From: a virus
IMG/VR virus record: IMGVR_UViG_3300022935_000083
Span: 1-29,552 of that record
DNA length: 29,552 nt
Strand: one strand, 5' to 3'
Shown: positions 13,013-24,354 of the stretch, piece after piece
Layout: each line of letters opens with the position of its first letter
How positions within the stretch are numbered: the stretch's first letter is position 1
Notes under the pieces: generated by a model
What the model was told of the DNA's origin: nothing
Seen by the model: the letters and a program-made list of their open reading frames with translations, nothing else
Database searches by the model: none
Program-made: the position numbers and the translations under genes

Positions 13013-13478
13013 TGCTGATAACTGGAAAAAGATTATCGGTGTTGTAACGGCGCTGTTCGCTGCCATAGGTGGCGGCTATTCTATGTCTGACAAAATTGGT
13101 TTCTTCAAACGCCCCATTCTTGAATGGGCTCCTGAATACTTCCGCATCACGTCTGGTCCCGCGAATGGTGATTTCGATGTAACTGTTGCGCGCAGGAAAC
13201 GGCGCAATGACTGTTCAGTCGAGAGTTTCACTCTTGAGGTCCGTGACGCAAAACTGTTCGTTCACAGGGCCATCCCAAGTGTGGCGAAGTTCTCCGGCCC
13301 TGCTGGCAACAAGATTCAGAAATTTGCCTACATGATTAAATTTGAGCACCCGGAGAAAGTAAATCCGGGGCGAGCACAGTTGCTGGCGCACATCAAATAC
13401 AAATGCCCGGAAGGGGAGAGGGTTGTGAATTACCCCGACCACCCCAACCTGACGTTCAATGTTGAGGCAGTGAGATGA
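13002..13478 (+). CDS. Membrane-anchored protein of the lysis cassette
   Basis: A 158-residue protein starting MWTDADNWKKIIGVV. Residues about 10-28 form one membrane segment; the remaining 125 residues are beta-rich and would sit in the periplasm or stay cytoplasmic. There are two Cys (CSVESF and YKCPEG), which could form a disulfide if exported. I do not recognise a family. The ATG at 13002 overlaps the holin end; a TTG at 12993 would add three residues and is nearer the site AGAGG (12984-12988), so the start is uncertain. Position between holin and endolysin suggests a lysis regulator or antiholin-like protein, unproven. Confidence 0.75.
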   Translation: MWTDADNWKKIIGVVTALFAAIGGGYSMSDKIGFFKRPILEWAPEYFRITSGPANGDFDVTVARRKRRNDCSVESFTLEVRDAKLFVHRAIPSVAKFSGPAGNKIQKFAYMIKFEHPEKVNPGRAQLLAHIKYKCPEGERVVNYPDHPNLTFNVEAVR

Positions 13479-14200
13479 GGACGAGTGAAGCCGGTCTGGC
13501 GCTTATTCAAGAGTTTGAGGGTCTCCGTCTGACGGCCTACACCTGCCCAGCAGGCATTCTGACGATTGGGTATGGCCACACATCTGCGGCGGGGCTGCCG
13601 ACCGTCACTCCGAAAATGAAGATTACGAAGCGTGTGGCTCTCGACATTCTTCGCTCCGATTTGGGGCGGTTTGAACGGGGTGTGAATGAGCTTCTCAAGG
13701 TAGAGGTGTCTGGAAACCAGTTCGACGTGTTGGTGTCGTTCTCGTACAACTGCGGCCTCGGAGCGCTGAAGAAATCTACTTTACTCAAGCGCGTTAACGC
13801 CAAGCGCTTTGATGACGTTCCCGCGGAGCTGATGAAGTGGACGCGGGGCGGCGGAAAGGTGCTACCGGGGCTTGTGCGACGCCGCCGTGCAGAATGTGAA
13901 ATGTGGCGAAGTCTTCCAGACTCTGAGAAAGATGATAGCCGCGTCGCTCCCGATACGCCTGTCCCTAAAAAGAAGATTACACAGTCGAAAGAAGCAAACG
14001 CAGCCGTAGTTGCTGGTGGCGCTGGCGCGTTTGCCGCAGCGCGGGAAGCCATCCCAGTCCTCCAGCAAGCGAATAGTGTTATTTCTGGATTTTCGGAGGC
14101 ACTCGGCAAACCTGCGGTTATTGCTTTTTTAATCATAGCCGTGGCGGCGGCAGGCATCTGGTATTGGCGCAAAAAGCGTCTAAATGAGGAGGCTTCGTAA
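13475..14200 (+). CDS. Endolysin, GH24 lysozyme with C-terminal membrane segment
   Basis: A 241-residue muramidase. The T4-lysozyme-type triad is present in the lambdoid spacing Glu-8-Cys-5-Thr: Glu15, Cys24 (in place of Asp), Thr30, within EGLRLTAYTCPAGILTIGYGHT-type context, and the domain runs to about residue 150. An unusual tail follows: a charged linker, an Ala/Gly-rich segment (about 174-192) and a clear membrane segment (about 213-231) ending WYWRKKR. There is no N-terminal signal. A tail with two hydrophobic stretches could tether the enzyme to the membrane as a hairpin. It overlaps neighbours through ATGA at 13475-13478 and TAATG at the end. Confidence 0.9.
   Translation: MRTSEAGLALIQEFEGLRLTAYTCPAGILTIGYGHTSAAGLPTVTPKMKITKRVALDILRSDLGRFERGVNELLKVEVSGNQFDVLVSFSYNCGLGALKKSTLLKRVNAKRFDDVPAELMKWTRGGGKVLPGLVRRRRAECEMWRSLPDSEKDDSRVAPDTPVPKKKITQSKEANAAVVAGGAGAFAAAREAIPVLQQANSVISGFSEALGKPAVIAFLIIAVAAAGIWYWRKKRLNEEAS
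14186..14192 (+). promoter_or_regulatory. Consensus ribosome site for a micro-ORF
   Basis: GAGGAGG (14186-14192) is seven bases before the ATG at 14200, one of the strongest ribosome sites in the window. It sits inside the end of the endolysin gene and argues that the 30-codon ORF that follows is really translated. Confidence 0.65.
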
Positions 14201-16604: not shown

Positions 16605-16985
16605 ATGACGGAAGAGGATATAAACGAGCTACGCTCGAAGGTCGAAAAGGCACTAGAGCGCGGCGGTGGGACGCATAGTTTTGACGATGTCGTTCGCGGA
16701 CTAATGACAGGCGATATGCAGGCATTTTCCAAGAATAAGACTATCGTTGTGACGCAAATAGTTAACGCGCCTCGTAAGAGGTGGCTAAACATATTTGTGG
16801 CGGCTGGTGAGTATAAAGACGTTATGTCTATGCAGGAAGAGATTTTGGATTTTGCGGCGGGGAATGGATGTGAGTTTATGGCGATGAATGGTCGTAAGGG
16901 ATGGGCTAAAATACTTCCAAGGTACGGCTGGTCTGATGTTTCTGTATCTTATGCGATACCTGTGCGGAGAGAATTAAATGGGTAA
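16605..16985 (+). CDS. GNAT-like small virion-module protein (T7 gp13-like)
   Basis: A 126-residue protein starting MTEEDINELRSKVEKALERG. The central KTIVVTQIVNAPRKRWLNIFVAAGE and the end GCEFMAMNGRKGWAKILPRYGW follow the pattern of phage proteins with a GNAT-like fold, including the T7 gp13 group needed for internal virion assembly. No acetyl-CoA-binding P-loop is clear, so it may be structural. GAGAGGGG (16595-16602) precedes the ATG closely. It overlaps the next gene by eight bases. Confidence 0.72.
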   Translation: MTEEDINELRSKVEKALERGGGTHSFDDVVRGLMTGDMQAFSKNKTIVVTQIVNAPRKRWLNIFVAAGEYKDVMSMQEEILDFAAGNGCEFMAMNGRKGWAKILPRYGWSDVSVSYAIPVRRELNG

Positions 16986-17952
16986 AAGCTCGCAGCCCCA
17001 AACCGTAACTAATCGGACAGAGTTGCCAGCTTGGCTCAACCAAGCTGCGCAGGAGAATTTACAACTCGCCAATGAGATTGGCTCAAGGCCGTATACTCCA
17101 TACACGGGCAATCTTGTTGCCGGATTCACACCTGCCCAGTTACAAGCGCAGGATATGGTTCGGGCTATGGCAGGCTCGACGCAGGGTGCGTTTAATCAAG
17201 CGCAGAGCGGCGCAACCGGCGCTATGGAATACACTCCTGAAAATGTGCAGGCGCAGAACGTCACAGCCGGTAGCATACCGGAGACTGACATTTCCGCGTA
17301 TATGAATCCCTATCTTTCAGAAGTCGAGAATAGAGCTGTAGCTAATGCCCAAAGAGCCTTGAAGGGTAGCCTCGCTGATATTGGGTCTAAAGCAGCTCGG
17401 TCTGGCGCATTTGGCGGTTCTCGACAGGGTATCCTAGAGGGCGTAGCTACTGCTGAAGCGGCTCGCAATGTTGGCGATCTCTCTGCCCAGCTAAGGCAGC
17501 AGGGATACAATACTGCCGCTGGTCTAGCTCAATCAGACATAAACAGGCAGTTTGAGGCCGCCCGCGCCAATCAGCTTGCTGGTATGAACGCGCAGCAGCT
17601 AAATCAAGCTGCTGGCCTCACTGCGAATCAGCAGCGTATGGCAGCTGCCGGGTTACTTGGCAGTCTTGCCACGCGGGAGCAGACTGCCGCTATGGATCAA
17701 GCGACCGCTCTCAACCAAGTTGGCCAGCAACAGCAGGCGCTTGAGCGGGCGCGGCTGCAAGATCAATATTCTAGGTTCATGGAACAGCTTAATCATCCAA
17801 GAGAGATGCTCAATCTGCGGCTCGCGGCTGTTGGTGCTACGCCATACGGCCAGTCATCGACACAGACGCGGACTGGGTTTCAAAGCACATCCCCCGCACT
17901 TAGTGGGATCGGATCATTTTTAACTGGCTTAGCGGCTCTCGGAACTTTTTGA
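16978..17952 (+). CDS. Candidate internal virion / DNA-ejection protein
   Basis: A 324-residue Ala/Gln-rich protein: a N-terminal LPAWLNQAAQENLQLANEIGSRPYTPYTG segment, then a long helical region (about 110-275: ANAQRALKGSLADIGSKAARSG and many AxxLN repeats) and a Gly/Ser-rich end. Proteins of this form are a recurring part of the internal core of short-tailed phages, ejected into the cell with the DNA. The family name is not certain. It starts inside the end of the previous gene; its stop (17950-17952) overlaps the next ATG. Confidence 0.75.
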   Translation: MGKSSQPQTVTNRTELPAWLNQAAQENLQLANEIGSRPYTPYTGNLVAGFTPAQLQAQDMVRAMAGSTQGAFNQAQSGATGAMEYTPENVQAQNVTAGSIPETDISAYMNPYLSEVENRAVANAQRALKGSLADIGSKAARSGAFGGSRQGILEGVATAEAARNVGDLSAQLRQQGYNTAAGLAQSDINRQFEAARANQLAGMNAQQLNQAAGLTANQQRMAAAGLLGSLATREQTAAMDQATALNQVGQQQQALERARLQDQYSRFMEQLNHPREMLNLRLAAVGATPYGQSSTQTRTGFQSTSPALSGIGSFLTGLAALGTF

Positions 17953-18641
17953 TGATAGATACGGCTATATTATTTTCCGGCGGAAAGGATAGTCTGGCGT
18001 GCCTCTATCTTAACAAAGATAGATGGAACGACATCTATGTCGTCTGGTGTAACACTGGTGCGGCGTATCCAGACGTTATCGAATACATGGAAAAATGGCG
18101 CAAAGTTTTGCCACATTTCATAGAGGTCAAAACCAACCAGCCTGCAAATATAGCCGAGTTTGGCTGGCCAGCTGATGTTTTGCCGGTAAACAATTCGTAT
18201 CTCGGAAAGCTGATTAGCGGCGAAGACACCCCTATGATGCAGCCATATGTAAATTGTTGTGCCGCAAACATTTGGTTTCCTCTACACGCTGAGTGCATCA
18301 AACTTGGCGTTAAGTATGTTATAAAGGGTCAGAAGAATAGCGATGGTCGCAAATCCACATCGCGTGATCGGTCAGTTATTGACGGCATTGAATATAGAAT
18401 GCCCGTTCAAGACTGGACGGATGAAGAGGTTTTCAAGTTCCTAAAGTTTCAATGTGTAGAGTTGCCGGAATGCTATGGTCGCGGCGAGAAGAAGGGGCGC
18501 GATTGCTGGGATTGCACCGCATTCAGAGATGAAATGGTTGAGGTTGTCGAAAATCTGCCCGAAGACAAGAAATCTATCGTCATTGGCAGGCTGAAGGCAA
18601 TTGACGATGCTGTAGGAAAGCAGTGGAGGCCCATAGCATAA
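17952..18641 (+). CDS. PP-loop ATP pyrophosphatase, PAPS-reductase-like
   Basis: A 229-residue protein. The motif SGGKDS (residues 9-14) is the ATP-pyrophosphate loop of the N-type ATP pyrophosphatase/PAPS reductase superfamily, which activates a substrate by adenylation. I do not see the C-terminal ECGxH motif of true PAPS reductases. Instead there are Cys102-Cys103 and a cluster Cys168, Cys174, Cys185, Cys188, which could hold zinc or an iron-sulfur cluster, as in some thiolation enzymes (DndC- or TtuA-like in principle). Substrate is unknown. The ATG at 17952 (TGATG overlap) is preferred to TTG 17949. Odd: it is an enzyme gene inserted in an internal-virion operon. Confidence 0.85.
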   Translation: MIDTAILFSGGKDSLACLYLNKDRWNDIYVVWCNTGAAYPDVIEYMEKWRKVLPHFIEVKTNQPANIAEFGWPADVLPVNNSYLGKLISGEDTPMMQPYVNCCAANIWFPLHAECIKLGVKYVIKGQKNSDGRKSTSRDRSVIDGIEYRMPVQDWTDEEVFKFLKFQCVELPECYGRGEKKGRDCWDCTAFRDEMVEVVENLPEDKKSIVIGRLKAIDDAVGKQWRPIA

Positions 18642-19417
18642 TGGACCCAATTATAAAAAATTTCCTGAACGCAATTGCTGGCCCGGAAAGCTCTGGCAAG
18701 TATGATGTTAGGTACACGCCAGAAGGCGGGGCCAAGTTCGAGGGATTTGAGAAGCATCCCCAGATATACGAGCCGGGTCCGGCTGGACCGTCTAGCGCTG
18801 CTGGTCGTTATCAATTCACCTACAGCACTTGGGCTCCGCTTGCGGCTAAAATGGGACTTAAAGATTTTAGCCCAGCCAATCAAGATAAGGCTGCTTGGGA
18901 GCTGGCGCGGCAAAGATATGCAAGGGCGAATAAGGGGGCTGATCTATACGCAGCCCTAAAATCCGGCGGAATTAGTCACGATATGCTCAAGTCTCTTGGT
19001 GGGACTTGGGCAGCTTTTAATTCTAAATCTGGCCGGAATAAGGCTATCAAATGGTATGGCTCGTCTCCGTCCAATCCAGTTTCCGCCGCGCTTCCCGGTG
19101 CTAAGGCGCAGGCGGCAAGTATGCCTACAGTTGCCGGGCCAATGAAAACAATACAACAGGCTGTGTATTCTCCAGACCCTCTTACTTCTGCGCAAAGGAT
19201 TGGGAACTTCTTGGCCCCGTCCCTTATTAGCGCCCCAAAGCCTATGACGGCTGATGATAAAAATAGGCTGTTTAATATGATTCAGCTTATGAAAGCTGGC
19301 GATAGTATGCTAAAGTTAGGCCGAAGAAGAGGTGGTGACATCGGCATATCCCCACCTGCGCCAGTTGTTGGTCCCCGTAATGTACCGTTAATCCCACTAT
19401 CAAAAGGACTTTTGTAA
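18641..19417 (+). CDS. Virion muralytic enzyme, GH104-type transglycosylase/lysozyme
   Basis: A 258-residue protein. Residues 10-110 look like the lambda-R/GH104 fold: Glu16 in AGPESSGKYDV (catalytic glutamate), then GRYQFTYSTWAPLAAKMGL, DFSPANQDKAAWELA. It would cut the glycan strand of peptidoglycan locally during DNA entry. The rest (about 130-258) is Pro/Ala-rich with no recognised domain and may anchor it in the internal core. It starts at TAATG (18639-18643) with GGAGG 11 bases upstream, and lies among internal virion genes. The family assignment is from motif memory. Confidence 0.82.
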   Translation: MDPIIKNFLNAIAGPESSGKYDVRYTPEGGAKFEGFEKHPQIYEPGPAGPSSAAGRYQFTYSTWAPLAAKMGLKDFSPANQDKAAWELARQRYARANKGADLYAALKSGGISHDMLKSLGGTWAAFNSKSGRNKAIKWYGSSPSNPVSAALPGAKAQAASMPTVAGPMKTIQQAVYSPDPLTSAQRIGNFLAPSLISAPKPMTADDKNRLFNMIQLMKAGDSMLKLGRRRGGDIGISPPAPVVGPRNVPLIPLSKGLL

Positions 19418-23491: not shown

Positions 23492-23692
23492 ATGTCAGCA
23501 ATCGAAACCATCAAGAACGGCGACGGCACATATACTGTTAAGTATTTCGGGAAGGATGCCGGATACTTTGCCAAAGCCAAGTCACCACCATTTGCGAGTG
23601 CGCAATACCGCTGGGTATCAGTCCACGGCACGATAGGCTATGCATACTCGAAAGCGCAGGCGCGTAAAAACATCATAGGAGCGTATCATTGA
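23492..23692 (+). CDS. Small basic protein opening the replication block
   Basis: A 66-residue protein, MSAIETIKNGDGTYTVKYFG at its start and KAQARKNIIGAYH at its end, beta-rich then helical. Good ribosome site AAAGGGGA (23477-23484). It is the first gene after the structural block and overlaps the next start (TTGA). No motif; function unknown. Confidence 0.7.
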   Translation: MSAIETIKNGDGTYTVKYFGKDAGYFAKAKSPPFASAQYRWVSVHGTIGYAYSKAQARKNIIGAYH

Positions 23693-24354
23693 GCGAGTTT
23701 AAGGGGCAGGAAGAGCTGATGGTAATTCACCTTGAGGCTGTGCGTCCTCACAAAGGGAAGCCATACAACGGAAAGATAATAAGCGGGGAACATTACAAGT
23801 CTCTTGTAAAGGATCACGCGCGCAAGGAAATAATTAAAAAGCGCGAGCGGATATTGCTTGAGCTAGAGCGCAGAAATGACGAGAAAATAAAAAAAATGCG
23901 TTTGAAGCAGAGGAAAGCTGGACGCAAAAACCCGCCAATAGAAGGTGTAATTGAGCCTTGCTATACCAATCATACGATTGGGTTACAAATACAGCCCAAG
24001 GCAAAGGCTATAATCGGATCGGTGTTAAATAAATATGACATGCACTGGTCTGCTGTTATAAACGATTCCCGCAAAAAACATCTTGTTATGATCCGCTTCG
24101 AGATGTGGGATTTGTTAAGCAGGAACGGTTACAGCCTGCCGATGATTGGTAAGATTTTTGGTCGTGATCATACAACGATTCTTCATGGAGTGAGGACGAT
24201 AAATGAAAGAAAAAGTTTTAGAGATTCTAGAGCAAAGGGAAACAACGCACGGCTTCTACTCGGAAGTCAGCAGCGTGAGTCAGATGGTCAAGAAGGCGAT
24301 GCAGATCGGCGTAAACTGGCCACATCTGAAGGCGGAGCAGAGGGAATCACTTGA
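23689..24354 (+). CDS. DnaA domain IV-like DNA-binding protein
   Basis: A 221-residue protein with a TTG start overlapping the previous stop (TTGA at 23689-23692). The middle has a basic coiled segment (KKRERILLELERRNDEKIKKM). Residues about 118-172 match the C-terminal DNA-binding domain of DnaA: RKKHLVMIRFEMWDLL, then LPMIGKIFGRDHTTILHG with GRDHTT at 158-163. No AAA ATPase domain is present, so it is a DnaA-box-binding fragment rather than a complete initiator. The last ~47 residues overlap the next gene by 152 bases and are polar, likely unconstrained. It may recruit host replication to a phage origin or compete with host DnaA; inferred. Confidence 0.8.
   Translation: MSEFKGQEELMVIHLEAVRPHKGKPYNGKIISGEHYKSLVKDHARKEIIKKRERILLELERRNDEKIKKMRLKQRKAGRKNPPIEGVIEPCYTNHTIGLQIQPKAKAIIGSVLNKYDMHWSAVINDSRKKHLVMIRFEMWDLLSRNGYSLPMIGKIFGRDHTTILHGVRTINERKSFRDSRAKGNNARLLLGSQQRESDGQEGDADRRKLATSEGGAEGIT

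Follow-up and report, generated by a model that had tools for sequence, protein, structure and literature searches.

What does an enzyme with a PAPS reductase-like fold do when it is encoded between two virion genes of a phage, and is it a reductase at all? The question is raised by a viral record of 29,552 nucleotides (IMG/VR IMGVR_UViG_3300022935_000083, analysed over its full length and referred to here as the window), in which a PHROGs scan recognised terminase, portal, scaffold, capsid and tail-fibre genes in a late-operon order typical of podoviruses. On the plus strand, an open reading frame at 17952-18641, from an ATG at 17952 to a TAA ending at 18641, encodes a 229-residue PP-loop protein whose exact translation contains the SGGKDS motif and the six cysteines (102, 103, 168, 174, 185 and 188) ascribed to it in an earlier note on this sequence. 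Its start shares one base with the stop of the adjoining 5' gene (TGATG, 17950-17954), a DNA ejection-type or internal virion protein gene at 16978-17952 (+; phrog_4287, 'DNA ejection protein', 9.5e-23), and its stop overlaps the start (TAATG, 18639-18643) of a muralytic, lysozyme- or endolysin-like virion gene at 18641-19417 (+; phrog_90 endolysin, 8.5e-18; phrog_17230). The proposed translational coupling to ejection and muralytic genes is thus borne out, as is the placement of the gene apart from metabolism, sulfur-metabolism genes not being linked to it. A conserved small gene at 16605-16985 (+) occupies the slot that holds a GNAT acyltransferase in Lessievirus, an equivalence of position only, since profile comparison with GNAT was negative and detected no similarity. 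The window also holds a second muralytic gene at 13475-14200, a strong endolysin match separate from the lysozyme-like gene at 18641-19417. At 23689-24351 it encodes a phage protein whose helix-turn-helix domain is that of the DnaA C-terminus (PF08299, 5.9e-10).

The assignment of the protein to the PP-loop, PAPS-reductase-like fold, made earlier from its motifs, agrees with matches, far above chance, to PF01507 (PAPS_reduct, 3e-10) and phrog_424 (1.6e-19) and with an AlphaFold2 model of mean pLDDT 93, for which structure comparison against the PDB returned the APS reductase 2goy as the closest solved fold (E 1.7e-7, TM 0.55), with other PAPS/APS reductases next and TtuA, QueC, TilS and LarE after them. 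Scans of IMG/VR yielded more than 300 relatives, with the top 80 retained from each scan; prophage-like and archaeal relatives were added from genomes, and ten cultured-phage records match. Conservation was assessed over 130 sequences of less than 90% identity with an intact P-loop, archaea being left out. The ATP-pyrophosphatase loop is intact in the window protein (S9-GGKD-S14, 17976-17993, +), and its S, G, G, D and S residues are invariant in 130/130, with K or R at position 12, although this invariance arises partly by selection because the P-loop belonged to the search seed.

Four of the six cysteines are equally constant. Cys102-Cys103 (18255-18260, +) and Cys185-x-x-Cys188 (18504-18515, +) are present in every one of the 130 non-redundant relatives, the two motifs being spaced by 81-82 in 108 of them. 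The search seed does not account for the conservation of CxxC, because 30 relatives that lacked a match to the CxxC seed and were found through the P-loop seed carry it too. Cys168 and Cys174 (18453-18473, +) behave otherwise: among the first 78 relatives they are Cys in one and two sequences, respectively, and in one record (IMGVR_UViG_3300017956_000298) the protein differs from that of the window by a natural C168G change alone, so we rule out both residues as cluster ligands and regard them as lineage noise. The earlier note had read the cysteines as a cluster and suggested an Fe-S or zinc centre from residues 168, 174, 185 and 188 together with the pair 102-103, naming conservation in homologues as the check. 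That check supports a probable Fe-S centre and upholds residues 102, 103, 185 and 188, but it relocates the likely ligands to an APS-reductase-type pair of motifs, CC(102-103) and CxxC(185-188), and shows that the six cysteines do not form one cluster.

In APS reductases, CC and CxxC ligate a [4Fe-4S] cluster. The family profile places the two phage motifs onto those of the reductase 7lhr (onto ECCRLRKVVPL and GCAPCTA, respectively), and from this alignment Cys102, Cys103, Cys185 and Cys188 are predicted to bind a [4Fe-4S] cluster. The likeness to assimilatory APS reductases (Fe-S CysH; 2goy, 7lhr) extends to the fold, the CC...~80...CxxC signature and the GQ(K/R)..D region, but it stops short of the residues that make a reductase. 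The C-terminal catalytic Cys of ECGxH, which the earlier note had found missing, is absent from the window protein and from all 130 relatives, and a substitute catalytic cysteine toward the C-terminus can be rejected, any Cys after CxxC being found in just 16 of the 130. In Fe-S APS reductases a lysine also follows the first Cys of CC at a distance of five residues (CCxxxK), whereas position 107 of the phage protein, which aligns with this lysine in 7lhr, is I, L, F, V, M, Q or H and is K in none of the 130; our literature search returned nothing on the role of this lysine, and the argument draws on the alignment and on general knowledge. Conversely, where the phage family has SGGKDS, E. coli CysH has a degenerate SSFGIQA, so that the PP-loop is intact in the phage enzyme and degenerate in the reductase.

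We therefore doubt the 'PAPS reductase/cysH' label, since ECGxH and the lysine after CC are both missing from 130/130 relatives, and consider it very probably wrong for this clade. The protein is likely to be an Fe-S, ATP-using enzyme, and the combination of an intact ATP loop, an APS-reductase-type cluster signature and no catalytic Cys favours ATP-dependent activation of a substrate over PAPS reduction; we found no published biochemistry for this phage PP-loop clade. A role as an auxiliary metabolic CysH raising sulfate assimilation in the host, which the viral-cysH literature assumes, the Pfam and PHROG names imply, the authors describing JC1 (PMC9144972) and CSP3 read into their homologues, and the wide reporting of viral cysH as a sulfur auxiliary metabolic gene (AMG) would make familiar, is very improbable here given these missing residues and the intact loop, the lack of other recognised sulfate-assimilation genes nearby and a location that is nearly always a virion operon. 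Few sulfur AMGs are reported as often as viral 'cysH', which is cited for phage-driven assimilatory sulfate reduction; the passages that we consulted in three such papers mention no catalytic-residue checks. For a clade with more than 300 IMG/VR matches, the sulfate-reduction reaction cannot be assumed.

Several known proteins resemble the phage enzyme in part. Among them are the Lessievirus 'PAPS reductase-like' proteins BcepIL02 gp67 and JC1 gp65, which are 34-36% identical to it and share both its cysteines and its slot between virion genes; they are known by annotation alone, and their role in sulfate reduction was assumed. Archaeal PRK13795-type proteins, like the phage protein, combine SGGKDS, CC and CxxC with the absence of ECGxH, but they reach about 640 residues, with a long N-terminal part and extra paired ferredoxin-type Cys motifs at the C-terminus (relatives L111-L174 in our collection, mostly from archaeal genomes). 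QueC and the CBASS protein Cap9, the latter among the PDB profile hits, have an intact PP-loop in common with the phage enzyme. QueC bears a zinc-binding four-Cys motif near its C-terminus, which is absent from the phage family, where only C185 and C188 are conserved and C174 is not, and the Pfam QueC profile scores the window protein at 20.3 bits, under the cut-off of 22. Fold matches to TtuA-type enzymes have E values of about 5e-6 to 1.5e-4. TtuA and TtcA ligate their cluster through three Cys; with four conserved Cys as ligands, the phage enzyme would have no open iron, unlike TtuA. Two further candidates were rejected: E. coli YbdN as a near relative, as it lacks CC/CxxC at the aligned place, and phage 186 orf84 as an equivalent, as it shares the superfamily but has a single Cys, another C-terminal pattern and an early-operon context.

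The position of the gene is also largely constant. A virion structural gene lies directly 5' of the PP-loop gene in 98 of the 130 relatives and one gene off in 18 more, mostly with a 1- or 4-base overlap between the PP-loop gene and the upstream gene. Three groups can be distinguished among the upstream genes; profile comparison detects no similarity between them, and homology between the groups was accordingly set aside. Such a position inside an ejection and muralytic operon would suit a protein that is packaged, ejected with its neighbours and active in the newly infected cell, as the earlier note had entertained. The related Burkholderia phages JC1 and BcepIL02 speak against it. Mass spectrometry of CsCl-purified JC1 particles detected gp64, gp67 and gp68, both flanking products of the homologue among them, though the PP-loop homologue gp65, like the acetyltransferase gp63, is missing from the virion table (PMC9144972). 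Likewise, the BcepIL02 record labels gp63, gp64, gp66, gp68 and gp69 as virion-associated but not gp65 or the homologue gp67. This is negative evidence, consistent in two related phages; it makes packaging improbable, and we consider the PP-loop protein likely to be a non-packaged one.

A second genetic association, overlooked in the earlier note and new here, links the enzyme to a methyltransferase. In 23 of the 130 relatives a SAM methyltransferase is fused to the PP-loop protein (9) or encoded directly upstream (9) or downstream (5). The standalone methyltransferases form one cohesive family of class I SAM enzymes, 32-42% identical to its first-listed member, whose nearest folds are MitM, TleD, AtmM and RebM, and the methyltransferase state changes at least nine times on well-supported branches of the PP-loop enzyme tree. 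Among loci gathered by the ejection gene rather than by the PP-loop enzyme, 9 of the 39 that have the enzyme also have the methyltransferase, against 0 of the 124 that lack the enzyme (p=1e-6, raw); within a single lineage clustered at 70%, the corresponding figures are 5/12 and 0/20 (p=0.004).

The identity of this partner bears on whether the enzyme thiolates nucleic acid, either phage DNA before packaging or host tRNA, in the manner of DndC/SspD or TtuA and with host IscS as the sulfur source. DndC and SspD have an intact PP-loop in common with the phage protein and are Fe-S PP-loop enzymes, as it is predicted to be; the SspD profile of PADLOC matches at 2.6e-5, over 52 residues only, and there is weak similarity to BrxP too, a resemblance that is slight but real, and late expression would suit the marking of DNA ahead of packaging. 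Against this, the PADLOC DndC profile has no match with the phage protein, and the phage Cys pattern is unlike that of DndC, a comparison made with the literature description of three ligands plus a dyad. Furthermore, the PHROGs scan recognised no desulfurase and no dnd or ssp partner, including DndB/D/E and SspB/C, among the genes scanned in the window, a 29.5-kb fragment of the genome. Since the methyltransferase partner is similar to small-molecule enzymes (MitM, AtmM, RebM) rather than to nucleic-acid ones, thiolation of nucleic acid lacks specific support, and we regard it as possible but on balance unlikely.

The third association concerns the ejection protein itself. In cultured phages that share the ejection gene but lack the enzyme, the ejection protein has a Peptidase_S74 chaperone domain at its C-terminus (Parlo, Pavtok, SopranoGao, phiM5, OspP_OH and POI1126, as well as Skulduggery by a custom profile), and in enzyme-bearing phages the ejection protein stops where S74 would begin (...GIMAF-stop versus ...GLMAFS-S74). 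When one lineage was sampled by its ejection gene, 27 loci had S74 only, 35 the enzyme only, none both and 11 neither; reduced to 70% clusters plus cultured phages, the same lineage gave 17, 12, 0 and 3 (Fisher p=2e-6, without correction for phylogeny). In the ejection lineage to which the window belongs, the direction is the same without reaching significance (11 S74, 3 enzyme, 0 both, 24 neither; p=0.54). The enzyme and the S74 tail switch independently four times on well-supported branches, and the corrected sign test (p 0.25) is unable to reach significance because there are four such switches only. The alternation, which is new here and was also overlooked by the earlier note, is thus a lead and not a result.

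These same data leave room for a rival reading, namely that the gene is a moron, with the ejection gene's 3' end as a recombination exchange point, at which enzyme and S74 tail alternate without functional relation. Many ejection-gene homologues have neither enzyme nor S74, the well-supported switches are few and correction for phylogeny leaves the test without significance, and in a third lineage one locus (L238, 6677-8735), the only such relative found, combines the PP-loop gene with an upstream virion protein that bears an S74 tail. A self-contained moron, however, would not be expected behind one of three mutually dissimilar virion-gene groups in 116 of 130 relatives, mostly joined by overlaps of 1 or 4 bases, and we judge this explanation a serious contender that falls somewhat short of an even chance.

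Taken as a whole, the reading that we favour, with moderate confidence, is that of a modifying enzyme that uses ATP and an Fe-S cluster, is made late, is not packaged and reduces neither PAPS nor APS. The protein would carry an APS-reductase-type [4Fe-4S] cluster on Cys102, Cys103, Cys185 and Cys188 and would use ATP through SGGKDS, most likely to adenylate a substrate. The cluster would then serve the following step, most plausibly a sulfur transfer of the kind that DndC or TtuA performs, which would be the most natural extension of ATP-dependent activation; the window contains no recognised cysteine desulfurase or sulfur carrier. A dedicated SAM methyltransferase may act on the same product in about a fifth of relatives, and the operon suggests that expression occurs late in infection. 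As for the substrate, the adjacent virion protein or another assembly-stage target is a tentative candidate, nucleic acid (phage DNA or host RNA) its main rival and about as likely or marginally more so, and a small molecule or other target would take up the remainder. The ejection protein is ranked among the candidates because of the translational coupling and because the enzyme tends to replace the S74 tail. More specifically, the enzyme, with or without the methyltransferase, could be a dedicated post-translational modification system for the ejection protein that replaces the intramolecular-chaperone tail, a speculative proposal that we think unlikely as it stands; if true, it would place an Fe-S PP-loop enzyme in the service of virion assembly.

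The main interest of the locus is that it contradicts a widely used annotation, and that the role of the enzyme is opened to testing by its link to the methyltransferase and its alternation with S74: the methyltransferase is a clear genetic partner and the S74 tail an apparent alternative, and JC1 and BcepIL02 are cultured phages in which a new use of Fe-S PP-loop chemistry could be examined. Other proteins, too, occupy the slot behind the ejection gene, with a 334-residue protein in Erwinia phage Pavtok (L311, 5284-6288) and a 351-residue protein in Pseudomonas phage Skulduggery (L318, 5109-6164), both without a Pfam match.
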